Positions 51-18,990 of a stretch of DNA of 27,516 nucleotides are shown piece by piece. Where the stretch lies: positions 1 to 27,516 of IMG/VR virus record IMGVR_UViG_3300037852_000054, one strand, 5' to 3'. The stretch is from a virus. Positions within the stretch are counted from its first letter, which is position 1. The number at the start of each line of letters is the position of its first letter. Made by a program: the position numbers and the translations under genes. A model generated the notes under the pieces. It made no database searches. It had not been told where the DNA came from and saw nothing but the letters and a program-made list of their open reading frames with translations.

Positions 51-515
51 ATGCCACGCCAGTCTGCAGAATCGCGCGCCGCCGCCTCATATTTGGCCGG
101 CAGCGCACCGCCGCCGCCGCCAAAACACCTGAGTAAGGCGGCAGGCGCGATCTGGATCGAAATTGCCGCCTCGAAGCCGGCCGATTGGTTCGATGCCGGC
201 TCACAGCCGCTGCTCGAGCAATATTGCGTCCTGATCGTCCACATGCGGGCGCTGAACCGGCGCATCGATCGCTTGATGAAGGCCGGATCCTGGGAGGAGC
301 TCAAGCCATACGAAAAACGCCGCAACCAAATGAGCGCGACGCTCGCGACCCTGGCGACGAAGCTGCGCTTGAGCGTCCAGGCGGTCGTCGAATGGCATTC
401 CAGGAAACTAGACGAGCGCGGAGCGCAGCCGGAGGCCAAAGCAAAGAAGGCTGATCCGCTGCTCGGCGGCCGCGCGGTCTGGGCGAGCGATAAGCCCGGT
501 GCCAAGCCGAATTGA
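51..515 (+). CDS. Phage terminase small subunit (P27-like)
   Basis: This is a 154-residue protein directly upstream of the large terminase, the usual place for the DNA-recognition subunit of the packaging motor. After a Pro-rich stretch (residues about 20-25) come a KHLSKAAGAIWIEIA segment and helices containing LLEQYCVLIVHMRALNRRI and a KRRNQMSATLATLATKLRLS stretch. That pattern is typical of P27-type small terminases, which bind phage DNA and regulate the large subunit. The C-terminus is basic and disordered-looking. The ATG at 51 is the first start available; upstream there is only a weak purine stretch, and bases 1-50 hold no convincing promoter. The stop overlaps the next start as TGATG. 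The family call rests on pattern and position, not a search. Confidence 0.85.
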   Translation: MPRQSAESRAAASYLAGSAPPPPPKHLSKAAGAIWIEIAASKPADWFDAGSQPLLEQYCVLIVHMRALNRRIDRLMKAGSWEELKPYEKRRNQMSATLATLATKLRLSVQAVVEWHSRKLDERGAQPEAKAKKADPLLGGRAVWASDKPGAKPN

Positions 516-2071
516 TGGGTGCTGCTGTTCGCAAGGCGCGAGCGCCGCGCCGGGACTTGAAGCGCGCCGAAGACGTGATTACCTTCATCGAGCGCTATCT
601 GCGCGTGCCGAAGGGCGGCATGGTTGGTCGTCCCGTACGCTTGCGCGAATGGCAGAAGAAGGCCATCCGAAAAATCTATTGCACGCCGACGCGTCAGTGC
701 ATCCTCTCGCTCGCTCGTAAGAATGGCAAAACGGCATTGATCGCCATGCTGGTGCTCGCGCACTTGGCGGGCCCCGAGTCCAGACGCAATGCCGAGATCT
801 ATTCTGCAGCCCAGGATCTCAAGCAAGCGGCGATCGTGTTCGATATGGCCGCGAAGATGGCGCGGATGAGCCCCGAGCTCAATCGCATGGTGATCGTGCG
901 CCAGTCGGCCAAAGAATTGTTCTGTCCGAGCACCGGCGTGCAGTACAAGGCGCTCTCCGCGGATGCGACAACGAAATATGGCTTATCGCCATCGCTCGTC
1001 ATTCACGATGAGCTCGGCCAGGTGCGAGGGCCGCGCTCGGATCTGTACGATGCACTCGAGAGCGCAATGGGCGCCCAAGCGGATCCCATGTCCCTCGTGA
1101 TCTCGACCCAGGCGCCGACGGATGGTGATCTTCTCTCGAAGCTGATCGACGATGCGCTGGCAGACAACGACGATAGCCGCAAAGTAATTCTGTTCGCAGC
1201 CCCTCCGGAAGCCGATCCATGGGCTGAGGCGACCTGGCGCCTTGCCAATCCCGCACTTGGGGATTTTCTCGACATCGAGGAGTTTCGCAACTCCGCGCGC
1301 ATGGCGCAGCGGCTCCCAGCCCAGGAAGCAGCGTTTCGAAATTTACGTCTGAATCAGCGCGTAGCCGCTGAGGATCATTTCCTGTCGCCGGCGGTGTGGG
1401 CGCTCAATGAGGGGGCACCTGACCTTTCGGTGCTCGAGGATGGCGAAGTATTCGCCGGTGGCGACCTGTCGGCTACGCAAGATCTTACCTCGATCGTTGC
1501 TGGTGCGACCGATGCGGATGGCGTCTGGCATATCCGACCTTGGTTCTTTCTGCCGGAGGATGGGCTCGTGGAGCGCGCGCAACGGGACCGCGTGCCATAT
1601 GACCTGTGGCGCGAACAGGGGTTTCTGATCACGACGCCGGGAAAGTCCGTCGACTACGATGCGGTGGCGGAAATTGTCGCGCCCGTCTTGAGTAAGCTCA
1701 ATGTCCGCGGCTTCGCCTACGACCGCTGGCAGTTCGAGAGCTTGAAAAGGGCATTCGCGCGTCACGGCTGGGAGCCGCCTTTCCTCGAGGACTTCGGGCA
1801 GGGTTTCAAAACGATGACGCCGGCGCTGCGCGCGGTCGAGACCATGGCACTCGACGGGAAACTGCGGCATGGCAAGCATCCGATCTTGCGGATGTGCGCG
1901 GAGAACGCGCGCGTCATCATTGATGACGCGGGCAATCGCAAACTGACCAAGCGCCGATCGACCGGACGTATCGATGGAATGATTGCGTTGGTAATGATGA
2001 TCGGCGCGGCCGCTGGCATAGTGCCGCCGGAAGATTCGGTGTACGAGACGAGAGGGCTGTTATTGGTATGA
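515..2071 (+). CDS. Phage terminase large subunit (ATPase/nuclease)
   Basis: This 518-residue protein is the packaging motor that pumps DNA into the prohead and cuts the concatemer. The N-terminal ATPase has a variant Walker A motif ARKNGKT (residues 67-73), Walker B SLVIHDE (160-166) and the coupling motif VISTQAP (195-201). The RNase H-like nuclease follows, with likely metal-binding acids in GGDLSATQDL (Asp317), FAYDRW (Asp403) and GRIDGM (Asp487). ARKNGK-type P-loops are common in HK97-like large terminases. I chose the ATG at 515, which overlaps the small-subunit stop as TGATG; a TTG one codon earlier is possible but less likely. The length is normal and all motifs look intact. The 3' end overlaps the next gene as ATGA. 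Confidence 0.95.
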   Translation: MGAAVRKARAPRRDLKRAEDVITFIERYLRVPKGGMVGRPVRLREWQKKAIRKIYCTPTRQCILSLARKNGKTALIAMLVLAHLAGPESRRNAEIYSAAQDLKQAAIVFDMAAKMARMSPELNRMVIVRQSAKELFCPSTGVQYKALSADATTKYGLSPSLVIHDELGQVRGPRSDLYDALESAMGAQADPMSLVISTQAPTDGDLLSKLIDDALADNDDSRKVILFAAPPEADPWAEATWRLANPALGDFLDIEEFRNSARMAQRLPAQEAAFRNLRLNQRVAAEDHFLSPAVWALNEGAPDLSVLEDGEVFAGGDLSATQDLTSIVAGATDADGVWHIRPWFFLPEDGLVERAQRDRVPYDLWREQGFLITTPGKSVDYDAVAEIVAPVLSKLNVRGFAYDRWQFESLKRAFARHGWEPPFLEDFGQGFKTMTPALRAVETMALDGKLRHGKHPILRMCAENARVIIDDAGNRKLTKRRSTGRIDGMIALVMMIGAAAGIVPPEDSVYETRGLLLV

Positions 2072-2358
2072 AGCGCCGCGATCTTTTTAAAGCTCTACTC
2101 GGAATTATCGCCGCGCCGGCAGTCTTCGCTGCTGATCGCACTATCCATATGAATTTGTCGAAGTTCACGCCGGAGGGCTTTGAATCGTTGATCTGTTCGA
2201 ATCGGTTTCGCAGTCAGATGAGACAACTTGCCGCCGAGGCCTACGCGGAGGCCTACACAGCGAGAATTCCATACATCGGACCGGAGTTATTGCCTGCAGA
2301 GGCAGCTAAGGCGTTTGCTGAGGTATCAAAAGGCTTCGTCTATCATTTGCATTTCTAG
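2068..2358 (+). CDS. Small Tat-signal protein with permuted tape-measure C-terminal segments
   Basis: This is a 96-residue protein. Residues 1-23 look like a twin-arginine export signal: MKRRDLFKALL, a hydrophobic stretch GIIAAPAVFA, and a possible signal peptidase site after VFA. A periplasmic or membrane location is therefore inferred. Residues 26-51 (IHMNLSKFTPEGFESLI...FRSQM) match the tape measure C-terminus at its residues 805-830 (LHLNMSAFDASGMDRLV...FRDAV). Residues 54-87 (LAAEAYAEAY...IPYIGPELLP...AFAEV) match tape measure residues 720-756 (LAAEAFAGAF...IPYIGPELAP...AYAAV). The two segments are in opposite order, and the protein ends in YHLHF, which recalls THLHLN just before the first segment in the tape measure. 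It overlaps the terminase stop as ATGA and converges with the minus-strand HNH gene, sharing four bases. Function is unknown; interference with genome injection is one possibility. Confidence 0.75.
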   Translation: MKRRDLFKALLGIIAAPAVFAADRTIHMNLSKFTPEGFESLICSNRFRSQMRQLAAEAYAEAYTARIPYIGPELLPAEAAKAFAEVSKGFVYHLHF

Positions 2359-2675
2359 CCGCTATTCTCGAACGGCAGTTCAAACTGCGCATCATTCGCT
2401 GGCTCGTAGTTGAGCCAATGAGTGGGCATTCGCTTCCAGCCGTGGCTCTGGCCGTGATGGCGCGCGCATAGGACTAGCAGGTTCGTGGGCTCAAGTGCGA
2501 GCAGTGGATGGCGCCAGCGACCTTTGACGTGGTGAATATGCTGGCCGCGTTCATCGCAGCCAGGCCATTCGCATACGTAATGCGCTCGATGCAGCGCTTC
2601 GAAGCGTGCCTTTTTCCAGTCGTCGGAATGGAGGAATAGATCGGAGCGAACCCAGGCGACGAAGGATTGAGTCAT
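2355..2675 (-). CDS. HNH endonuclease
   Basis: This 106-residue protein is of the small HNH nuclease type. The core has a zinc knuckle CEWPGC, then HIHHVKGRWRHPLLALE, NLLVLC and ARHHGQSH, which supply the beta-beta-alpha-metal His and Asn residues and the second zinc pair. Such proteins nick or cut DNA and are either free-standing homing endonucleases or packaging helpers; HNH genes near terminase are needed for packaging in some HK97-like phages. Here the gene runs against the late genes, so a mobile or separately controlled role seems more likely than an obligate packaging role. Its ATG overlaps the stop of the upstream minus-strand gene as ATGA, so the pair is probably cotranslated. No terminator lies between its stop and the facing forward gene. 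Confidence 0.85.
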   Translation of the reverse strand: MTQSFVAWVRSDLFLHSDDWKKARFEALHRAHYVCEWPGCDERGQHIHHVKGRWRHPLLALEPTNLLVLCARHHGQSHGWKRMPTHWLNYEPANDAQFELPFENSG

Positions 2676-3343
2676 TCTTGAGCGTCGTTTATTAAAAAAG
2701 AGCTCCCTCGCCGCATCATGCTCGCGGCGAGAAAGAAGAAATTCTGCATTGCGCGCCGTATTGTGCGGTCACAATCCCCTGGCCAAGCGGAAGGTTTGAG
2801 ATTTTCAACAGTCGGCTTCTCATGCAGAACGAGACGATCTGTGATGAGGCGCGCGATTAAATAATTTCGGACATGCACTTTTTGTCCCTTCTGTGCTCGA
2901 TGGTTCCTCTTGTGTCGTCCCGCGCCAGCAAGGAACCTATAGCTCCATTCAAACGATTGGATGCATTCGGCTTCCCTGGCCGTCAGCGTCGGTTCGCAAT
3001 ATTGGAGAGAGATGCCGTTGGCAATGCACCACCGCTGTATGCCGGAAAGAGCCGATGGTTGGGGCCGTTTGATTGAGATGTATGGTTCACTCCGCGCAAA
3101 AAGATAGCGTAGGGCCATGGCATAGCGTTCAGCTATTCCGATTTCGGATTTGGGACCTACGGGACGCTGCATGATCTCTATCAAATAATCGAGACTTTCA
3201 ATTTCTTCGACGACGAGATCGAAGTCGACTGGGCTGTCGATGAGCGATTGAAGTTTGTTTGCCAAATGAGCGCGTCGCGCGCGGGCTTCGGGGAGTGCCA
3301 TAATTGTTTGGGCGTCGTCCATATGTGCGCCATGTTTTATCAA
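2672..3343 (-). CDS. Unknown minus-strand protein with a capsid-delta-like N-terminus
   Basis: This is a 223-residue protein of no family I recognise, first gene of the minus-strand pair. Residues about 19-61 resemble the first 45 residues of the major capsid protein encoded at 7797: EARARRAHLANKLQSLID here against ELRQSRAELAVKIATLID in the capsid, then EIESLDYLIEIMQ against EISDLDALIERAQ. About 20 of 42 positions are identical by eye without gaps. In HK97-type capsids this N-terminal region is the delta domain, which acts as internal scaffold and is cut off. The remainder is basic, with Cys-containing stretches (IQRWCIANGISLQYCE, WPGDCDR) but no motif I can name. The TTG at 3343 has GAGGG just upstream; the ATG at 3322 (residue 8) is an alternative with a poorer site. 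Base composition looks more AT-rich than its neighbours. Confidence 0.7.
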   Translation of the reverse strand: MIKHGAHMDDAQTIMALPEARARRAHLANKLQSLIDSPVDFDLVVEEIESLDYLIEIMQRPVGPKSEIGIAERYAMALRYLFARSEPYISIKRPQPSALSGIQRWCIANGISLQYCEPTLTAREAECIQSFEWSYRFLAGAGRHKRNHRAQKGQKVHVRNYLIARLITDRLVLHEKPTVENLKPSAWPGDCDRTIRRAMQNFFFLAASMMRRGSSFLINDAQE

Positions 3344-3366
3344 GCACCCTCAAAATGCAATAAAAA

Positions 3367-3398
3367 AAGTGGACAACTTGCGAAGAAGTGGACAACTT
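3367..3398. promoter_or_regulatory. Tandem 13-bp dyad, possible operator
   Basis: AAGTGGACAACTT occurs at 3367-3379 and again, identically, at 3386-3398, a 19-bp period. Each copy is an imperfect palindrome (10 of 12 positions symmetric about the centre). The pair lies between the divergent starts of the minus-strand gene (3343) and the forward membrane-protein gene (3427), beside an A/T run at 3361-3368. I saw no further full copies in the window. The arrangement suits a dimeric DNA-binding protein acting as repressor. A minus-strand promoter could overlap it, but no clear -35/-10 pair is visible. Confidence 0.5.
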
Positions 3399-3426
3399 CC
3401 CAGAAAAAACGACCCGAGGTTCCGGC

Positions 3427-3624
3427 ATGGTTATCGCAAGACACATTGGCTCGGCATTGCGTGCCTTGGGCCCTGGATTCTCATCGCTGATTGAGACGCT
3501 ATTGCTCTTAGGAGGCGCCGCCCTGATCGCATTCGGTGCCTGGCAGGCCTACCCGCCCGCGGGACCGATCGTCGGCGGCGTCCTCCTTATCGTCGGCGTG
3601 ATTCTGCGCGCTAAAGGTGCTTGA
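3427..3624 (+). CDS. Small two-helix membrane protein
   Basis: This 65-residue protein has a short positively charged N-terminus (MVIARHIGSALRALG) and two hydrophobic helices, IETLLLLGGAALIAFGAWQ (about 21-39) and PIVGGVLLIVGVIL (about 46-60), joined by a Pro-containing turn and ending RAKGA. It should lie in the inner membrane as a hairpin. The start is fixed by GAGG at 3416-3419, seven bases before the ATG; an in-frame GTG at 3388 lies in the operator repeats and lacks a site. The stop overlaps the portal start as TGATG. Small membrane proteins between terminase and portal occur in other siphoviruses. Holin-like or superinfection-exclusion roles are possible, but nothing in the sequence decides between them. 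Confidence 0.75.
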   Translation: MVIARHIGSALRALGPGFSSLIETLLLLGGAALIAFGAWQAYPPAGPIVGGVLLIVGVILRAKGA

Positions 3625-5024
3625 TGGGACTCGCTCAGTCCATCGCGCGCGGCCTGGGCGCGACAATATCGCGCACAACCGATACGACCAGTGACGCGCT
3701 GAACTGGAACGACTTCGGCTGGTCGGTACCGACGGCCGCCGGCGTCGCGGTCAATCAGGCCTCGGCGATGCAGGTCTCAGCGGTTTACGCCTGCGTCTCA
3801 TATATCGCCTACAACATGGCGATGATGGGCGCGACGATATTCCGCGGCGAACGCAGCGGTGGAAACGCCAAGCGACAGAAAGCCACCAATCATCCGCTCT
3901 ACCCGCTGCTGAAGATCCCGGCGCCGTGGCTTACTTGGTTCGAATTCTGCGGCATGATGCAGACGGCCGTGCTACTGCGCGGCAATGGATATGCCGTGAT
4001 CCTGCGCGATTACGCCGGCAAACCGAAGATGCTGGTGCCCATCAATCCAGATCGTGTCGCATTGTGGGAAGCGCCGACCGGCGAGCTGTTCTACATGGTG
4101 ACGCGCTCCGGCCTGCACGAGATGGCCGTGCTTTCCGGTGAGCCGCTGCTGATCGCATCCGAGGATATTTTTCATCTCAAGGCCTTGACGATGAACGGCC
4201 TTCTGGGTCTTTCACCGATCAGCCTGGCGCGCGAATCCATTGGTCTTGCGATCGCCCAGGAGCAGCTCGCGTCGCGGTGGGCCGGCAACAGCGCCAAGCC
4301 CAGCGGCATCTTGACGACCGATCAGAAACTGAGCCCCGAGGCTGCGACGCGACTCGCTGCGGACTGGAAAACGCTCAACACCGGCCTATTCAACGCCGGC
4401 AAGACCGCGATCCTCGAGCAGGGCTTGAAATGGCAGTCCCTCGCGATGACATCGAGCGACATGGAATTCATCGCGTCCCGCGATTTCCAGCTCTCGGAGA
4501 TTGCGCGCATCTATCGGATGCCGCCGCACATGCTCGGCGTCGCGGCGCGCGCCACTGGCAACAGCATCACCCAGCTGGCGCAGGAGTATCTGAACTACAC
4601 GCTCTCCACGTGGATCGAGATGTGGGAACAGCGAATAGCGTTCACGTTCAATCTGGATCCGGACGAGATGTTCATCGCGTTCGACGTCGATCGTCTGCTC
4701 CGTGCAGACATCTCCACGCGCTTCGCGGCAAATCGCATCGCGCTTGGCGGCACGGGATGGCGGACGGTGAACGAAGTGCGCGCGGACGAAGGTGCGGAAA
4801 AGGTCGAGGGTGGCGACACCGTCTTCCGTCCCGTCAATACGGCACCGGTGGATTCCGATGTATTTGCAGGCATGGCGGATCCGAATGACCCGACGGTGCC
4901 GGACGATGACAATCCAGGCCAGACGCAGCAACAGCCGCGCCTCGCAGCTCCAGGGAGCGATCAGACCGGCGATAAAGGCGAAGGCGGCGGGCGGCCGCCG
5001 AAGAAGGGGATATCGAAAACATGA
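3624..5024 (+). CDS. Phage portal protein, HK97 family
   Basis: This 466-residue protein forms the dodecameric ring at the capsid vertex through which DNA enters and leaves. Recognisable stretches are VSAVYACVSYIAYNMA (near 55-70), HPLYPLL, the WLTWFEFCGMMQTAVLLRGN segment, VPINPDRV, IFHLKALTMNGLLGLSPIS, SRWAGNSAKPSGIL, FQLSEIARIYRMPPHMLG and NSITQLAQEYLNYTLSTW, in the order usual for the HK97-type portal family. The C-terminal 60 residues are Gly/Pro/Gln-rich and acidic, probably disordered. The ATG at 3624 has AAAGG upstream and overlaps the previous stop; a TTG one codon earlier is less likely. The end overlaps the next gene as ATGA. Confidence 0.95.
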   Translation: MGLAQSIARGLGATISRTTDTTSDALNWNDFGWSVPTAAGVAVNQASAMQVSAVYACVSYIAYNMAMMGATIFRGERSGGNAKRQKATNHPLYPLLKIPAPWLTWFEFCGMMQTAVLLRGNGYAVILRDYAGKPKMLVPINPDRVALWEAPTGELFYMVTRSGLHEMAVLSGEPLLIASEDIFHLKALTMNGLLGLSPISLARESIGLAIAQEQLASRWAGNSAKPSGILTTDQKLSPEAATRLAADWKTLNTGLFNAGKTAILEQGLKWQSLAMTSSDMEFIASRDFQLSEIARIYRMPPHMLGVAARATGNSITQLAQEYLNYTLSTWIEMWEQRIAFTFNLDPDEMFIAFDVDRLLRADISTRFAANRIALGGTGWRTVNEVRADEGAEKVEGGDTVFRPVNTAPVDSDVFAGMADPNDPTVPDDDNPGQTQQQPRLAAPGSDQTGDKGEGGGRPPKKGISKT

Positions 5025-9233: not shown

Positions 9234-10016
9234 ATGGCTGACTCAATATATTCCAGATTTGGAAGCGCAAACGCGAATTTTCGCGGCGGCTTCGAGACGC
9301 GATGCAATCAATGTCGGGCGACCGTTTGGGTTAGGCCATCGCGCAAGAGGTTCAAGCGACATTTCTGCACGGCGACCTGCAGGAATTCATGGTTTTCGGA
9401 AAATCTGCGTGGCGCATCGACTTCCAATTTTAAAGGTGGCCAGGTCAAACGACGTTGCCTTGTCTGTGGCGGCCGTTTTATGGCTCATCGGGCTGAAGTC
9501 GCGCGCGGCTGCGCCAACTTTTGCTCGCGGGCATGCTTTTTCGAGAGCATACGAAAGATCTCAGAAAAGGCCTGCGCGGTATGTAAGAAGAAATTCACCG
9601 TTCGTCCGTGGAATGCGGCGATAGCGAGATTCTGTTCGCAGAAATGCAAACATGCATCGCAGCGCAAGACCCGCACAGCCCGCGAGATCGCGCAGCGCCG
9701 CCTCGAGGTCCGCATTGCCTCGCTAATGGGTTACTCACTGAAAGGTCGCAAAGCCGGCTGCCGATGGGAATCTCTGGTCGGCTACACGCTCACCGATTTG
9801 ATGGCGCATCTCGAATCGAAGTTTTCGCCCGGCATGTCTTGGGCGAACATTGGCGAATGGCACATAGATCACAAGCGGCCGCGTTCGGCCTTCAAGTACG
9901 ATTCGCCGAGCGATCCGCAGTTCAAACGCTGCTGGGCGCTGAAAAATCTGCAGCCACTCTGGGCTGTCGACAACATGGCTAAGGGCGCGCGCCTCAACTG
10001 GCGCAAAGCCGCTTAG
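9234..10016 (+). CDS. HNH endonuclease with three treble-clef zinc fingers
   Basis: This is a 260-residue protein. Residues 20-140 hold three tandem zinc-finger units, each CxxC followed by FCxxxC: C24/C27 with C45/C49, C75/C78 with C97/C101, and C114/C117 with C134/C138. The C-terminus carries an HNH nuclease core, WHIDHKRPRSAF then NLQPLWAVDNMAKGAR, preceded by a VGYTLTDLMAHLESKF segment common in free-standing phage HNH homing endonucleases. The fingers probably set DNA target choice. The start has GAGG at 9222-9225, eight bases ahead of the ATG. Hairpins lie both upstream (9171-9204) and downstream (10097-10129), and it sits between capsid and decoration genes, as expected for an inserted homing-type gene that does not disturb its neighbours. 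Confidence 0.85.
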   Translation: MADSIYSRFGSANANFRGGFETRCNQCRATVWVRPSRKRFKRHFCTATCRNSWFSENLRGASTSNFKGGQVKRRCLVCGGRFMAHRAEVARGCANFCSRACFFESIRKISEKACAVCKKKFTVRPWNAAIARFCSQKCKHASQRKTRTAREIAQRRLEVRIASLMGYSLKGRKAGCRWESLVGYTLTDLMAHLESKFSPGMSWANIGEWHIDHKRPRSAFKYDSPSDPQFKRCWALKNLQPLWAVDNMAKGARLNWRKAA

Positions 10017-11878: not shown

Positions 11879-12847
11879 ATGCAAAGCCAGACTGCGAGCT
11901 ATGTCCTCTCGACGCTGATCGCAGCGCCTGGGACCTCGGCACTCGCATCGCTTGCAAACGTCAAGGATGAACTCTCCATCACGGACGATTCAACAGACGA
12001 GCGCCTCACGCGCTGGATCAATGAGGAATCCGCATCCATTGCACGTTACTGCAATCGCGTCTTTGGCCTAGCAACCTGGCAGGATGAATTCCGGCCGCAG
12101 CATGATGTGCGCGGCGAGGGCGTGCGCGGCGCGAATAATCCTTTGAAGCTGGTCAAATGGCCGCTCGCGGCTGGCGCGGTGCTTTTCACCGGCAACACGT
12201 CGATCGGGAATCTGTACATCACTGGAATACCGTCGACGGCCGGGCTCTATGAAGGCATGCCGGTATTCGGGACTGGCCTACCAGGCACGCAGATAACGCC
12301 GATTTTCGCGTCTGGGATCCAGCCGGGCACGGTCATACAGACCGTGAATCCGACCAGCGTCCTGCTGTCGCTGGCAGCGACAGCGGCCAATGTCGGCAGC
12401 TCATTCACGGCCGGGATCTCGGTCATCGAGATTGTCGCCAACGTCACGACGCAGCTGATCGCCGGCCAGGACTACGAGATCGAGACGGGATCTTTACAGC
12501 CCGGCGATGAAGGCGCGGCGAGGCTCTATCGCTTGAATGACCTAGGTCACCCGCGCACCTGGCCGTCGGCGCAGATACTCGTGACCTATCAGGCGGGCTA
12601 TGCGCTGCCGAACGATGATTATGGCGACAACATCGCCACATTGCCGATGGATCTGCAGAGCGTCTGCGAACGCCTGGTCGTCTGGCGCCAGGCCGCGCGC
12701 GGCCGCGATCCGATGCTACGCGGAAGACAGCAGCCGAATCTCGGCACGGAACAGTTTTGGGTAGGAGCCACGCCAGGACAGACCGGCCCGTGGCCGAACG
12801 ACATCATGGGCGTGGTCAACGCCTATCGTGTGCCGGTGGTTGCGTGA
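11879..12847 (+). CDS. Head-tail connector (gp6-like) with inserted beta-domain
   Basis: This is a 322-residue protein. The N-terminal helices (LASLANVKDELSITDDSTDE, LTRWINEESASIARYCNRVF) and the C-terminal part (QILVTYQAGYALP, LPMDLQSVCERLVVWR) are the usual head-tail adaptor pattern. The adaptor binds under the portal and closes the packaged head. Between them, residues about 102-187, is an insert containing STAGLYEGMPVFGTGLPGT, GTVIQTVNPTSVLLSLAATA and GSSFTAGI, a small beta-domain also found in the gene at 14159. Adaptors without the insert are usually under 220 residues, so the insert explains the size. There is no clear ribosome site, so coupling to the gene one base upstream is likely. 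It ends GTGA-overlapped with the next gene. Confidence 0.8.
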   Translation: MQSQTASYVLSTLIAAPGTSALASLANVKDELSITDDSTDERLTRWINEESASIARYCNRVFGLATWQDEFRPQHDVRGEGVRGANNPLKLVKWPLAAGAVLFTGNTSIGNLYITGIPSTAGLYEGMPVFGTGLPGTQITPIFASGIQPGTVIQTVNPTSVLLSLAATAANVGSSFTAGISVIEIVANVTTQLIAGQDYEIETGSLQPGDEGAARLYRLNDLGHPRTWPSAQILVTYQAGYALPNDDYGDNIATLPMDLQSVCERLVVWRQAARGRDPMLRGRQQPNLGTEQFWVGATPGQTGPWPNDIMGVVNAYRVPVVA

Positions 12848-13323
12848 GCATAGTCACCCGCGGCGATCGGGAAATCTCGCTGCGCTTCGATACCTTTCCT
12901 GCGCGTGCACATAAGCGGCTCGAGGAAAAGATTGGCATCTTGACCGAGCAACTCGAAGCGAGAGTTCAGGCGGCTACGCCGGTGCTGACCGGACTTTTGC
13001 GCAGTGAGGTCACACCGCGCGATTTTGCTGACAATGTGAATCGTGTAGCCGGCTATGTATCAATATTCGCGCACAGCTCGAATGAATATGCGAAGGCCGC
13101 GACGTTGGAGTATGGCTCCAATAAGCCGCGCCACACATCTCAACGCGCATCGAGCGGTATCCTCTCGCGCTTTGGCTTAAAGCAGCGAATCGCCGATCGC
13201 ATGAGCAAGCCGGTGATGATCAAGGCCTTCGAGTACCTGCGCGGCCCGCTCGCGCAGATGAAGCCTGAAATCGAGGCCGGTTTGAATGAGGCACTCGCAG
13301 AGGCGGCGGCGGAACAAGAGTGA
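12844..13323 (+). CDS. HK97 gp10-like head-tail connector/tail completion protein
   Basis: This is a 159-residue basic protein starting at a GTG that overlaps the previous stop (GTGA). The pattern of LEEKIGILTEQLEARVQAAT, PVLTGLLRSEV, VAGYVSIFAHSSNEYAKAATLEYGS-type stretch (TLEYGSNKPRHTSQ) and a C-terminal helix is that of HK97 gp10-like proteins, which join the completed head to the tail. The LEYG element near residue 83 is characteristic. An upstream in-frame extension to 12757 would lie inside the adaptor gene and is unlikely. The 3' end overlaps the ParB-like gene as GTGA. Confidence 0.8.
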   Translation: MSIVTRGDREISLRFDTFPARAHKRLEEKIGILTEQLEARVQAATPVLTGLLRSEVTPRDFADNVNRVAGYVSIFAHSSNEYAKAATLEYGSNKPRHTSQRASSGILSRFGLKQRIADRMSKPVMIKAFEYLRGPLAQMKPEIEAGLNEALAEAAAEQE

Positions 13324-14162
13324 TAGCCGTCGCGCCGCTTGAGCGATCGCGGGCAGAATCGGCCGTAAGTTATACGATGCGTCAGATTCCCATCGAGCGC
13401 ATTCGCGCGTTTGCTTTTCAGCCGCGCAAGTGGTTCGACGCGGAGGAGATTCGCGCTCGCGCTGAGAGCATGAAGGCGTTAGGTCAGCAAGATCCCGTGA
13501 CGGTCGAGCCAGTGTACGGCGATCCTGATCATGACTTTGAACTGATTAACGGCGAGTCGCGCCTGCGCAGTGCACGCAAAGCCGGCATGAATACGTTGTG
13601 GGCCGCGGTGCGCTCGGTGCCTTACGGCTCCAAGCTGGACAAGCACCTCGCCTCCCTGGTCGCGAACTTCAATCGCTCCGATCACACGCCGATGGAGATC
13701 AGCGAGGCGCTGCGCATTCAAGTCCAGGAGGGCGGCAAGACTCAAGCCGAGGTGGCCCGCGCACTCGGCAAGCATCAGCTCTGGGTAGGCCATTTTCTTT
13801 CGTTGCAGAAACTGCATCCGGACTTGCAAGCGCTGATGCATCCGTCGATTCCAAAGGCGCAACGATTGGCGCCGGCGACCGCGTTCGAATTGGCGCGGCT
13901 TCCACTTGATAAGCAACTCGAAATTCTACGTCTGTCACGCGACGCGAATGGCCAAGTCAGTGTGATCCGCGTGCGGATTCGCGCCTTGAAGTCTTGCGGG
14001 AAAGAGACTGAGCCGTCAGCGAGGGAAAACGCCTATGTCTGGACAATGGAACGCGAACAGCGACACCAAGAGTTCAGCCGCCCAATTCCTGAGCATGTCG
14101 CACATTTGCGCGCCGGCATCAAAGAATTTCGCTCGCTGCTGAATTACAGGCATCTTAGATGA
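13320..14162 (+). CDS. ParB-like DNA-binding protein
   Basis: This 280-residue protein has a ParB/Spo0J-type N-terminal domain: MRQIPIERIRAFAFQPRKWF (20-39), then LINGESRLRSARKAG (75-89, the counterpart of the GERR CTP-binding box) and LVANFNRSDHTPMEISEAL (113-131, the counterpart of the ENLQR box). A helix-turn-helix follows at TQAEVARALGKHQLWVGHFL (141-160). The last 75 residues are charged and not recognised. ParB proteins bind a palindromic site and usually work with ParA, but no ParA is present here. The gene overlaps both neighbours (GTGA at the front, ATGA at the back), inside the head-tail connector set, so it is made with late structural proteins. A GTG at 13320 or an ATG at 13377 (residue 20) could be the start; coupling favours the GTG. 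Confidence 0.85.
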   Translation: MIAVAPLERSRAESAVSYTMRQIPIERIRAFAFQPRKWFDAEEIRARAESMKALGQQDPVTVEPVYGDPDHDFELINGESRLRSARKAGMNTLWAAVRSVPYGSKLDKHLASLVANFNRSDHTPMEISEALRIQVQEGGKTQAEVARALGKHQLWVGHFLSLQKLHPDLQALMHPSIPKAQRLAPATAFELARLPLDKQLEILRLSRDANGQVSVIRVRIRALKSCGKETEPSARENAYVWTMEREQRHQEFSRPIPEHVAHLRAGIKEFRSLLNYRHLR

Positions 14163-14785
14163 GCGGTAGACCTTCGCGCGAAAGCATCATGAATGCCCTG
14201 TTCGCCGTGCTGCAAGCCTCCGTGCAAGCGTCGTTCACGGCCAACACTGGCGCGGAATCCGAGACGCTCACGAATCCGAGCAGTACCGCCGGGCTCTTCA
14301 TTGGCCTACCGGTGCTTGGCGGCAGCATTCCGCGCGGCGCCGTCATCACGGGTCTATCGCCGCTGACGATGTCCCTACCGGCGACAGCGAACGCAGTCGG
14401 CGTGCCGCTGACCACCGGCTTTCTGACCTTCTCGCGGCGTCTGCAGCATTGGAATCAAGTCGCGTCGCAGCCGGCGTTGTTTCTTCGCGATGGCGATGAG
14501 GAAATGGAATACACGAATACTGTGTACCAGCGCCAGACGCTCAAATGCGAAGTCTGGATTTATAGCAATGCCGGCCAGGATCCAAACATCGCGCCTGGCA
14601 CTGCGCTCAATAATCTGCTCGACGCTGTGCAGGCCGCATTCAGTTCGGACAGCCCACTAGAGGCCAGATTTACGTTAGGCGGTCTAGTGGAATGGTGCCG
14701 CATCGTCGGCAAGATCATGAAAGAACCCGGCGACATGGATGGCCAGGCCATCGCGGTCGCCGATGTAGAAATCACTGTTCCTTAA
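14159..14785 (+). CDS. Probable tail terminator protein with beta-insert
   Basis: This is a 208-residue protein between the connectors and the tail tube gene, the place of the tail terminator (lambda gpU-like). The N-terminal helix (SRESIMNALFAVLQASVQAS) and the C-terminal half (ALFLRDGDEEMEY, LKCEVWIYSNAGQDPN, ALNNLLDAVQAAF, DMDGQAIAVADVEITV) fit tail-terminator or tail-completion proteins. Residues about 35-87 hold an insert, STAGLFIGLPVLGGSIPRGA then SPLTMSLPATANAVGVPLTT, closely related to the insert in the connector at 11879. The start overlaps the ParB-like stop as ATGA. Confidence 0.7.
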   Translation: MSGRPSRESIMNALFAVLQASVQASFTANTGAESETLTNPSSTAGLFIGLPVLGGSIPRGAVITGLSPLTMSLPATANAVGVPLTTGFLTFSRRLQHWNQVASQPALFLRDGDEEMEYTNTVYQRQTLKCEVWIYSNAGQDPNIAPGTALNNLLDAVQAAFSSDSPLEARFTLGGLVEWCRIVGKIMKEPGDMDGQAIAVADVEITVP

Positions 14786-16452: not shown

Positions 16453-18990
16453 ATGGCGGATTCGAACCTAAGTGTCAAGATCACGGCGGACACGACGAAT
16501 TTCACCGCGGCCATGGCTGTTTCCAAGGCTGCGCTGAATGATCGCGCGGCTGCCTTGCGGGAAGCGATCAAAGCTGAAACCAGTTTTGGTACCGCGAACA
16601 TCGCTGCCGCCCAGGCCGTACAGCAGGCGGCGGAGAATGTCGCCAGAGCGCAGGCGCAGGTCCGAGGCTTAAACGAGCAACTCAAGGCCACGAGCGCGAC
16701 GAGCAACGCCATGGGCGGCTCGCTTCAAGGATTGAATGCCACCCTATCAAAGGCCTTCGCGGTCACGGGTGTTGGGATCGCTCTCGAAGGGATCAATAAG
16801 CTCGGGCAGGCCATAACGACTCTCGGCGACCGTGCGATTGAGATCCGTACGATGAGCGAGGTCTTGGGCGTCACAACCTCGCAATTCCAGGCAATGAGCG
16901 TCGCCGGCGAGGAGGCCGGCGTATCGGCACAGGTTTTCGCGCGCGCCAGTGAGCGCTTAACAAATCTGCTCTCGGAAGCCCGCGACGGGGCAGGGAAAGC
17001 CGTCGAGAAGCTGCATGAGCTTGGCGTATCGACCCAGGATATCGCTAATAAAAATTTCCAGCTGAATGATGTGCTCGCGGTGTTGAAAACGCGGCTGGAA
17101 GATGTCAACACCAAGGATGATACGAGAAAAGCACTTCTTCAGGAATTAGGCGCGCGGACGGCGCTCGCGATTGAAGCCATCAAAGAATATGACGGCAGCG
17201 AGCGCGGCGTCTCATCGGCGATGACGCGCGTCAATGGCCTTTTGCCTGAGCAGGTGGAACATCTGAAGGAGGCAAAAACCTGGTGGTCAGAGATGGGGAC
17301 CGCCGCCGCGAATACTGCTTCTAAAATGGTGGCGGCCGCCGCGGGCATGCTCGATGCCTACAAGAACGCGGTGCTGGCGAAAAATCCGCAGTTAGGATCG
17401 GCGGGACCAAGTTCCGGCCCTGGCCACGATGCCTCCTCCACCGGCGAAGCGCGGGCGGCCGAGGAGAGCGCTCGCCAGCAGGAAGCCGTTCATAACGAGG
17501 TCCTGCACAGCGAGATGGAATCAGTCAAGGAGGGCGTTGCAGCCTTTGCGTCTGGCACAGCCGAGCGTCTGGCGGCGCTGCAGCGATACGCCAGTCTTGC
17601 GAAGCAGTATTACGGCGCCGGCAACGTCGATGAGGTCAGGAAGGCGAATAGCGAGGTCCTTGCGGCGGAACGTGAATTCCACGACACGCAGAGCCGCGAA
17701 GCGATCACCTCTGCAAAAGAACAAGCACAAGCCGTAATGGCGGACACCAGCTTGAGCTTGAGTCAAAGGCTCGATGATGAGCGAACGATCTGGAGCGGCG
17801 TTCTCGCCAGCGACAAGCTCGGCAATGCGCAGCGCATCGAGGCGGCCCGCGAGTTCTCTCGCGAGTACACCGAGGTTGCCAAGCAGACGGCCGCCCAGGC
17901 CGCTGCGGTTTCGCGCATCGATGCCTCGACGGATATCGCCATTGAGAAAATCCAATTGGATGCCAAGCGCAGCGCGCTTGAGCAAGAGCTGCAGGCGAAC
18001 CAGGTTACAGCTGCCCAAAAGCTCGCCATCATGCGTCAGCTTGCTTCGGAGTCCTTTTCTCTGGACCTGCAGGCGCTCACCAGCGAGCTGCAGACGCTGC
18101 GGGAGGGAACCGCGGAATACGAACGCGTCTACAGCCAAATAAGGGAGCTGAAGGCCAGACTTGTTGCGGATCTCGAGGGCTACGACTCGCAGTACCAGAA
18201 GGATCTCGCGAAGCAGCTCAAGGAGCAGAGCGCGCTGTGGAAAAGCACTGTCGGGGAAATAGAGAGTGTCGAAGGAACATTGGTCACCGATGTGCTCACC
18301 AAGCGCAAAACGTTGGCCCAGACCCTAATTCAAGTATCGAGCGATTTGATAACGAAGGAAATCGCGAACGACATCAAAGCGTTCACCACGAAACTGCTGC
18401 TCAATGATCAAACAAAGGCACTCGAACAGGGCGGCCTTTTGTATCACGCGCTATTCCAGACTCAGAAGACGGCTGCCACGGTCACCGCCGAGGCGGCGCA
18501 GACCAGCGCCGTGGTCTCTGGTCAGGCCGCGCAGAACGCCGCACTGACATCAGGCGCGGCGGCTGGCAAGGCTGTGCAAGCGTCCACCGGCCCAGCCGAG
18601 GTGATGGCGCTGGCCGCCGAGGCCTTCGCGGGAGCTTTTGCAGCCACGGCGGCGATTCCTTATATCGGGCCGGAGCTCGCACCGGCGGCAGGTGCGGAAG
18701 CCTATGCGGCAGTGGCGTCGATGTCCGGCCCCGCGTCTCTCGACGTCGGTACCAACTACGTTCCGCGCGACATGATCGCGCAATTGCACGAAGGCGAATC
18801 AGTGCAGCCAAAGGCCTATAACCCGGCGGCAGGCGGCAGAGACGGCGGTGGCGGCGATACCCATCTGCATTTGAATATGAGTGCTTTCGACGCGTCTGGC
18901 ATGGATAGGCTCGTTCACAGTCAAGGCTTTCGCGATGCGGTTGCATCGAGCATGAACAAACACATCAATCGCGGCGGGCGCTTAGGCTAA
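16453..18990 (+). CDS. Tail tape measure protein
   Basis: This 845-residue protein sets tail length and leaves the tail during genome injection. The N-terminus (SVKITADTTNFTAAMAVSKA) and long helical coiled-coil stretches throughout (for example RAAALREAIKAE, ARAQAQVRGLNEQLKA, LDQALTS-type repeats and LRQLASESFSLDL-like regions near 510-580) are typical. At about 1.5 angstrom per residue a tail near 125 nm would be expected. The C-terminus has an Ala/Gly-rich hydrophobic segment with IPYIGPEL at 735, then NYVPRDMIAQLHEGESVQPK and LHLNMSAFDASGMDRL (805-820). Two of these C-terminal segments recur in swapped order in the Tat-signal protein at 2068. The ATG has only a weak G-rich stretch upstream. 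The stop overlaps the next start as TAATG. Confidence 0.92.
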   Translation: MADSNLSVKITADTTNFTAAMAVSKAALNDRAAALREAIKAETSFGTANIAAAQAVQQAAENVARAQAQVRGLNEQLKATSATSNAMGGSLQGLNATLSKAFAVTGVGIALEGINKLGQAITTLGDRAIEIRTMSEVLGVTTSQFQAMSVAGEEAGVSAQVFARASERLTNLLSEARDGAGKAVEKLHELGVSTQDIANKNFQLNDVLAVLKTRLEDVNTKDDTRKALLQELGARTALAIEAIKEYDGSERGVSSAMTRVNGLLPEQVEHLKEAKTWWSEMGTAAANTASKMVAAAAGMLDAYKNAVLAKNPQLGSAGPSSGPGHDASSTGEARAAEESARQQEAVHNEVLHSEMESVKEGVAAFASGTAERLAALQRYASLAKQYYGAGNVDEVRKANSEVLAAEREFHDTQSREAITSAKEQAQAVMADTSLSLSQRLDDERTIWSGVLASDKLGNAQRIEAAREFSREYTEVAKQTAAQAAAVSRIDASTDIAIEKIQLDAKRSALEQELQANQVTAAQKLAIMRQLASESFSLDLQALTSELQTLREGTAEYERVYSQIRELKARLVADLEGYDSQYQKDLAKQLKEQSALWKSTVGEIESVEGTLVTDVLTKRKTLAQTLIQVSSDLITKEIANDIKAFTTKLLLNDQTKALEQGGLLYHALFQTQKTAATVTAEAAQTSAVVSGQAAQNAALTSGAAAGKAVQASTGPAEVMALAAEAFAGAFAATAAIPYIGPELAPAAGAEAYAAVASMSGPASLDVGTNYVPRDMIAQLHEGESVQPKAYNPAAGGRDGGGGDTHLHLNMSAFDASGMDRLVHSQGFRDAVASSMNKHINRGGRLG

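Follow-up and report, generated by a model that had tools for sequence, protein, structure and literature searches.

A 96-residue protein of an HK97-type siphophage resembles two C-terminal segments of the phage's tape measure protein in swapped order

In a 27.5-kb IMG/VR fragment of an HK97-type siphophage (IMGVR_UViG_3300037852_000054, analysed over its full length and hereafter called the window), a gene adjoining that of the terminase large subunit (terL) encodes a protein of 96 amino acids, in which a leader is followed by two segments resembling the C-terminal part of the phage's own tape measure protein (TMP). The homology of one of these segments, a hairpin, to the TMP is firmly established. 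The homology of the other, which corresponds to the C-terminal tail of the TMP, is probable and held with moderate confidence, as it is significant in pairwise comparison against the phage's own TMP only. The features concerned are the following:

2068..2358, plus strand: gene of the small protein, 96 aa, comprising the leader, the TMP tail-like and the TMP hairpin-like segment
2068..2133, plus strand: leader MKRRDLFKALLGIIAAPAVFA/A, residues 1-22, a putative Tat/Sec-like signal or membrane anchor as judged from sequence
2134..2220, plus strand: TMP tail-like segment, residues 23-51, corresponding to TMP residues 802-830 (pairwise match only)
2212..2331, plus strand: TMP hairpin-like segment with the IPYIGPEL turn, residues 49-88, corresponding to TMP residues 715-755 (HMM match)
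16453..18990, plus strand: TMP, 845 aa (PHROG 9483, E=7.3e-10; PHROG 2854, E=2.4e-6)
18595..18723, plus strand: hairpin region of the TMP matched by the small protein, residues 715-757
18856..18942, plus strand: C-terminal tail region of the TMP matched by the small protein, residues 802-830

Residues 49-88 of the small protein and residues 715-755 of the phage's TMP are identical in 23 of 41 alignment columns, with a two-residue gap, and share the octapeptide IPYIGPEL (residues 67-74 and 735-742, respectively). Identity to the TMPs of two other contigs, L042 and L052, is higher (27/41). A hairpin HMM built from the TMPs of 13 other phages, with the window TMP left out, recovered the small protein at E=1.6e-7 among ~12,200 ORFs, the next-best short ORF outside this phage reaching E=0.44. 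With an HMM made from the two closest TMPs (L042 and L052), the E-value was 7.8e-11 in a search of the same size (~12,200 ORFs).

The tail-like segment is shorter and more divergent, with 9 of 23 residues identical between positions 26-48 and TMP positions 805-827, or 10 of 26 when the alignment is extended to positions 23-48 and 802-827. It scored 54 against the phage's own TMP; the next window protein reached 27, and 1,500 shuffles run against the whole proteome reached 44 at most. Profiles of TMP tails matched it with E~0.17 at best, or not at all. For both segments, none of 20,000 composition-preserving shuffles scored as high against the phage's own TMP, and of 1,533 background ORFs from other phage loci, none but TMPs reached both scores. 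Since the shuffling kept composition, alanine content was controlled, and a low-complexity alanine artefact is ruled out by the shuffles together with the profiles. The match of two segments to the TMP C-terminus, as proposed in the first-pass annotation, is thus borne out, and for the hairpin it persists at the profile level after this control.

Within the small protein, MKRRDLFKALLGIIAAPAVFAA is followed by the tail-like residues 23-48 and then by the hairpin-like residues 49-88, the two segments standing back to back without a linker. The hairpin precedes the tail in every TMP that carries both (~15 distinct TMPs checked); the reverse order was seen in the small protein only, and in none of the TMPs compared. 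The circular permutation suggested earlier is thus supported as a swap of order that is unique against these ~15 TMPs, with the caveat that the tail is the weaker of the two segments. The protein matches a TMP C-terminal profile through its hairpin, the tail doing so pairwise only, and it differs from a full TMP in its length of 96 aa, in the position of its gene next to terL, and in its reversed segment order.

At the DNA level, the shared identity that had been adduced in support of the relationship adds no weight to it. Identical residues of the small gene and the TMP gene use the same codon in 9/22 and 6/9 cases, whereas 8.1 and 3.7 are expected from random draws from the phage's codon usage, so that the agreement is no higher than protein similarity and codon bias predict. 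With codon agreement at chance, the small gene is not a recent copy of the TMP gene, and recent duplication of TMP DNA is ruled out. The TMP-like copy would, on this evidence, be old or derived from a relative; the persistence of the similarity despite chance codon agreement indicates that the protein was retained while its sequence diverged substantially.

The small gene carries the phage's coding signature in frame, with a codon score of 0.076 per codon and negative scores in all five other frames. Its start overlaps the terL stop by 4 bp (ATGA, 2068-2071), a possible ribosome site, GAGAGGG, lies 11 bases upstream of the start, and its 3' end overlaps a convergent HNH gene by 4 bases. The leader has a hydrophobic core (KD 2.35). 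It was earlier designated a Tat-type signal, and MKRRDLFKALLGIIAAPAVFA/AD has a Tat/Sec-like look, but none of the Tat models of Pfam and NCBIfam match this N-terminus. Leaders of the form MKRR(D/E)(L/F)FK are common to many otherwise unrelated small phage proteins (pattern matches L009-L032), some of them encoded immediately before a portal, head-tail adaptor or terminase gene, which suggests a modular signal for export or anchoring. The mature part lacks a TM-like stretch (best 19-mer 0.62), and the GRAVY of its hairpin is 0.35, compared with 0.87-1.01 in TMPs. AlphaFold models of the protein, alone and with seven TMP hairpins, were of low confidence (mean pLDDT 54 and 53).

No homologue of the small protein was found in 50,697 phage records and 72,556 plasmid records (E up to 10), or in the PDB. 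In the IMG/VR viral contigs, it occurred only in the same phage of another assembly (L003), which is 100% identical to the window over a 3,090-bp overlap; these scans used short exact peptide patterns, by which distant relatives could be missed. Matches in 73 whole records, including those with related TMPs, were TMPs or short leader stretches only, and alignment-guided rescans returned the same phage or full TMPs only. A match in L004 was rejected as it has the leader alone in common, and the single match to a genome contig, from Dawidia soli (L006; 39% over residues 21-61), was taken as a chance match. In the collections searched, therefore, no relative of the small protein was found outside this phage population. 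The other assembly, L003, also encodes upstream of terS an 862-aa protein (1400-3988, plus strand) with many repeats around (P)QIDxxxNxA.

The phage itself has a TerL ~46% identical to that of HK97, and the tail end of its genome encodes a DUF2460 protein, a baseplate-hub attachment domain, an NlpC/P60-like protein and a tip protein with a domain that takes its name from the gene-transfer-agent protein Rcc01698. In the phage collection, Bradyrhizobium and Caulobacter phages, along with Streptomyces phages, are among the best matches of its major capsid protein (MCP), which makes an alphaproteobacterial host likely. A ParB-like gene (13320-14162, plus strand; ParB_N, E=9.3e-13, and HTH_ParB) lies within the neck/tail module and is not present at the corresponding position in the related contig L042. 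Directly 3' of the major capsid gene, a 260-aa protein (9234-10016, plus strand) has a zinc-finger/HNH look by eye and matches no Pfam family.

The small gene belongs to a cluster between terL and the portal gene, whose features, together with the MCP domain discussed below, are:

512..2071, plus strand: terL, overlapping the small gene by 4 bp (Pfam TerL_nuclease, E=7.3e-36)
2355..2675, minus strand: HNH endonuclease-like gene, convergent with the small gene, 4-bp overlap (PHROG 119, E=6.6e-14)
2672..3343, minus strand: p223, 223 aa, no known family, overlapping the HNH gene by 4 bp
2703..2735, minus strand: terminator-like 13-bp stem with a U-run near the 3' end of p223 (site count not above shuffles)
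3164..3304, minus strand: N-terminal part of p223 resembling the N-terminal domain of the phage's own MCP (two-sequence E=3e-8)
about 3364-3398, no strand assigned: two exact palindrome-like AAGTGGACAACTT copies upstream of p223, a possible operator
3427..3624, plus strand: small hydrophobic protein gene before the portal gene, with a counterpart directly after terL in contig L058
7797..7934, plus strand: N-terminal domain of the MCP, source-like for p223 (Phage_capsid Pfam, E=4.1e-42)

Contig L058, whose TerL is 75% identical to that of the window, has neither the small gene nor the HNH gene nor p223, and its small hydrophobic protein gene directly follows terL; the three genes thus constitute an insertion of ~1.35 kb relative to L058. 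Residues 14-60 of p223 match the N-terminus of the phage's own MCP with a score of 88, reached by none of 20,000 shuffles, whereas other MCPs score 26-29 against p223 and the best of ~12,000 other ORFs scores 49. An all-against-all comparison of the window proteins gave three clear matches: the small protein with the TMP, p223 with the MCP, and a connector with a tail protein. Two of the three inserted genes hence carry a piece of this phage's structural proteins. The connector pair consists of the head-tail connector (11879-12847) and a later tail-module protein (14159-14785), which have a ~78-residue module in common (36% identity, E~1e-5). From its sequence, p223 is possibly a capsid-targeting or capsid-interfering protein.

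GC content is 0.51 in the small gene and p223, compared with 0.58-0.62 in five structural genes. The AAGTGGACAACTT copies, separated by 19 bp, lie in the interval from p223 to the following plus-strand gene, and at up to two mismatches three matches were found against 0.23 expected, which makes the pair a possible operator. No sigma-70-like promoter was found upstream of p223. The 13-bp terminator-like hairpin falls within the final codons of p223, ahead of the HNH gene. Among the PADLOC defence models, none match the small protein or p223, and the HNH gene receives weak HNH-type matches only.

Of the explanations considered for the small protein, the one that we prefer, tentatively and with less than even confidence, is that it mimics the TMP C-terminus and competes for the binders of this region, likeliest at the inner membrane or in the periplasm. 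Such a protein would be a more soluble version of the TMP tail and hairpin, with the order of the two exchanged, and would compete for whatever binds the TMP C-terminus. At its likeliest site of action, its targets might be the channel-forming TMP of a related superinfecting phage, which it would poison, or the host partner of that TMP, which it would occupy. The lower hydrophobicity and the lack of a TM-like stretch in the mature part fit a soluble competitor. On this reading, the protein would be exported, expressed late, bind in this manner and exclude related phages. The first-pass annotation had already read the protein as a TMP mimic, and had named as evidence to the contrary a profile match that disappears once alanine content is masked or homologues devoid of TMP similarity; neither was found, and the similarity is significant with composition controlled, which supports the mimic reading as such.

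The part of the TMP that is copied has been linked to infection and assembly in several phages. In JBD30, the TMP C-terminus forms a trimer held in the baseplate and proposed to be first out at infection (PMC11445458), and in TP901-1 infectivity depends on the last 60 residues of the TMP, which are thought to contact the initiator complex (PMC5099701). Phage exclusion by Ltp, an exported lipoprotein, works via interaction with the TMP C-terminal region (PMC3952083), hybrids with the tail tube and TMP genes of HK022 escape exclusion by HK97 gp15 (PMC10883804), the SNIPE nuclease is found in association with TMPs at the inner membrane (PMC13190303), and Tab blocks tail assembly with a specificity that maps to the TMP C-terminus (PMC10884400). 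Taken together, these data place the mimicked region where known inhibitors and partners act.

Given that it overlaps terL (ATGA) on the late strand, the small gene is probably a late lytic gene rather than one expressed by a lysogen. Late lytic expression would be less useful for the exclusion of other phages by a lysogen, and the exclusion reading is therefore partly at odds with the anatomy of the locus. The failure to find homologues in the collections searched, the low confidence of the AlphaFold models and the missing Tat-model match also count against the preferred reading, as does the fact that the TMP-targeting exclusion proteins are not known to be copies of a TMP. By analogy, the layout would be matched about as well by a counter-defence gene that is expressed late and adjoins one on the minus strand. 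The mimicry most likely acts at the envelope, and the main rival is a self-protection decoy like anti-Tab: p223, the HNH protein or both would form a prophage-expressed block of virion production, and the small protein would, during the lytic cycle, sequester a blocker that binds the TMP, encoded by the phage itself or by another prophage. In JBD26, anti-Tab likewise overlaps a terminase gene on the late strand, with tab convergent on the minus strand (13377-13628, plus, and 13582-13833, minus; PMC10884400), and tai/ati of phi80 forms a comparable non-contiguous operon (PMC11364771). Sensitivity to Tab maps to the very part of the TMP that the small protein mimics, p223 starts with a capsid-protein domain and looks aimed at virion assembly, and the twin palindrome AAGTGGACAACTT lies upstream of it. 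However, the small protein, p223 and the HNH protein show no sequence similarity to anti-Tab, Tab, Ati or Tai (scores at shuffle level), the small gene lies between terL and portal rather than between terS and terL, and a promoter-like site for p223 was not found. An export-type leader would also be odd for a cytoplasmic decoy, and p223 resembles the MCP, not a TMP binder. Moreover, anti-Tab and Ati do not resemble their own targets, so that target mimicry as a general property of counter-defence proteins is unsupported. All told, we consider the decoy possible, if rather unlikely.

That the inserted genes have no selected function, HNH-driven insertion and illegitimate recombination having stitched ORFs together from pieces of structural genes, is unlikely in our judgement. 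Fragments of this kind are held by two of the three inserted genes (of the TMP in the small gene, of the MCP in p223), and the lower GC of these two, the missing genes in L058 and the failure to find homologues anywhere searched would all agree with a chance assembly. Yet the frames have stayed open and the TMP and MCP residues recognisable through a divergence long enough to bring codon agreement to chance, and in its reading frame the small gene shows the phage's coding signature. The leader, the contiguous joining of the segments and the ATGA overlap likewise look organised.

Phages often make small late envelope proteins, and the small gene is on the late strand, which would suit another late role in the envelope or in assembly, either as a membrane-active helical hairpin for lysis or as a cytoplasmic regulator of tail initiation with an uncleaved leader. 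The need for the last 60 TMP residues and their presumed contact with the initiator complex (PMC5099701) point the same way. Nonetheless, the mature part is not membrane-like, and the gene is missing at this position in L058 and so is not generally required, which leaves such a role improbable. About as improbable is that the insertion forms a virion-mimic interference cassette of the phage's own structural pieces, in which the small protein, as an exported and circularly permuted tape-measure end, would jam the injection or tail initiation of rivals and p223 would enter their capsids via its copied capsid-scaffold domain, alongside an HNH nuclease.

The TMP is emerging as a target in two settings, namely the passage of siphophage DNA through the envelope (Ltp, gp15, SNIPE) and tail assembly (Tab). 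To our knowledge, none of the TMP-targeting exclusion proteins known so far is a copy of a TMP, and our literature search found no phage that makes a rearranged mini-version of its own TMP end with an export-type leader. If the small protein competes with the TMP as the preferred mimic reading has it, it would provide the TMP C-terminus in a minimal and genetically separable form with which to look for its binders in the envelope. It would also indicate that fragments of structural genes can be recruited as interference or counter-interference genes.

Compared with known systems, the small protein is closest to those siphophage TMPs that combine an Ala-rich hairpin, the motif (L/F)DVGTNYVP and a C-terminal tail (PHROG 2854/9483/9570; L042 and L052). 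It resembles these in the hairpin with its IPYIGPEL turn, and this phage's own TMP in the tail segment, but it has 96 rather than ~400-1000 aa, an export-type leader and the reversed order; the VGTNYVP region is missing, and the gene adjoins terL. JBD26 anti-Tab is similarly encoded by a small late-strand gene that overlaps a terminase gene and faces a convergent minus-strand gene, and Tab targets the TMP C-terminus mimicked here. In contrast to Tab/anti-Tab and Tai/Ati, with which it has no sequence homology, the present locus is placed after terL, has two minus-strand genes including HNH, and encodes a late protein that is itself a TMP mimic. We read this link as a likeness of layout, not membership, because sequence similarity is lacking and anti-Tab and Ati are unlike their targets. 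Ltp of the Streptococcus phage TP-J34 is likewise small and exported (a prediction in our case), and acts on the TMP C-terminal region at injection (in our case by model only). However, Ltp is a repeat-domain lipoprotein whose partner is the TMP of the superinfecting phage, and it has not been reported as a TMP copy. HK97 gp15 and P22 SieA, inner-membrane proteins by prediction and by demonstration, respectively, differ from the small protein in this respect and in not being TMP copies, and they resemble it in the proposed block at DNA injection through conduit proteins.
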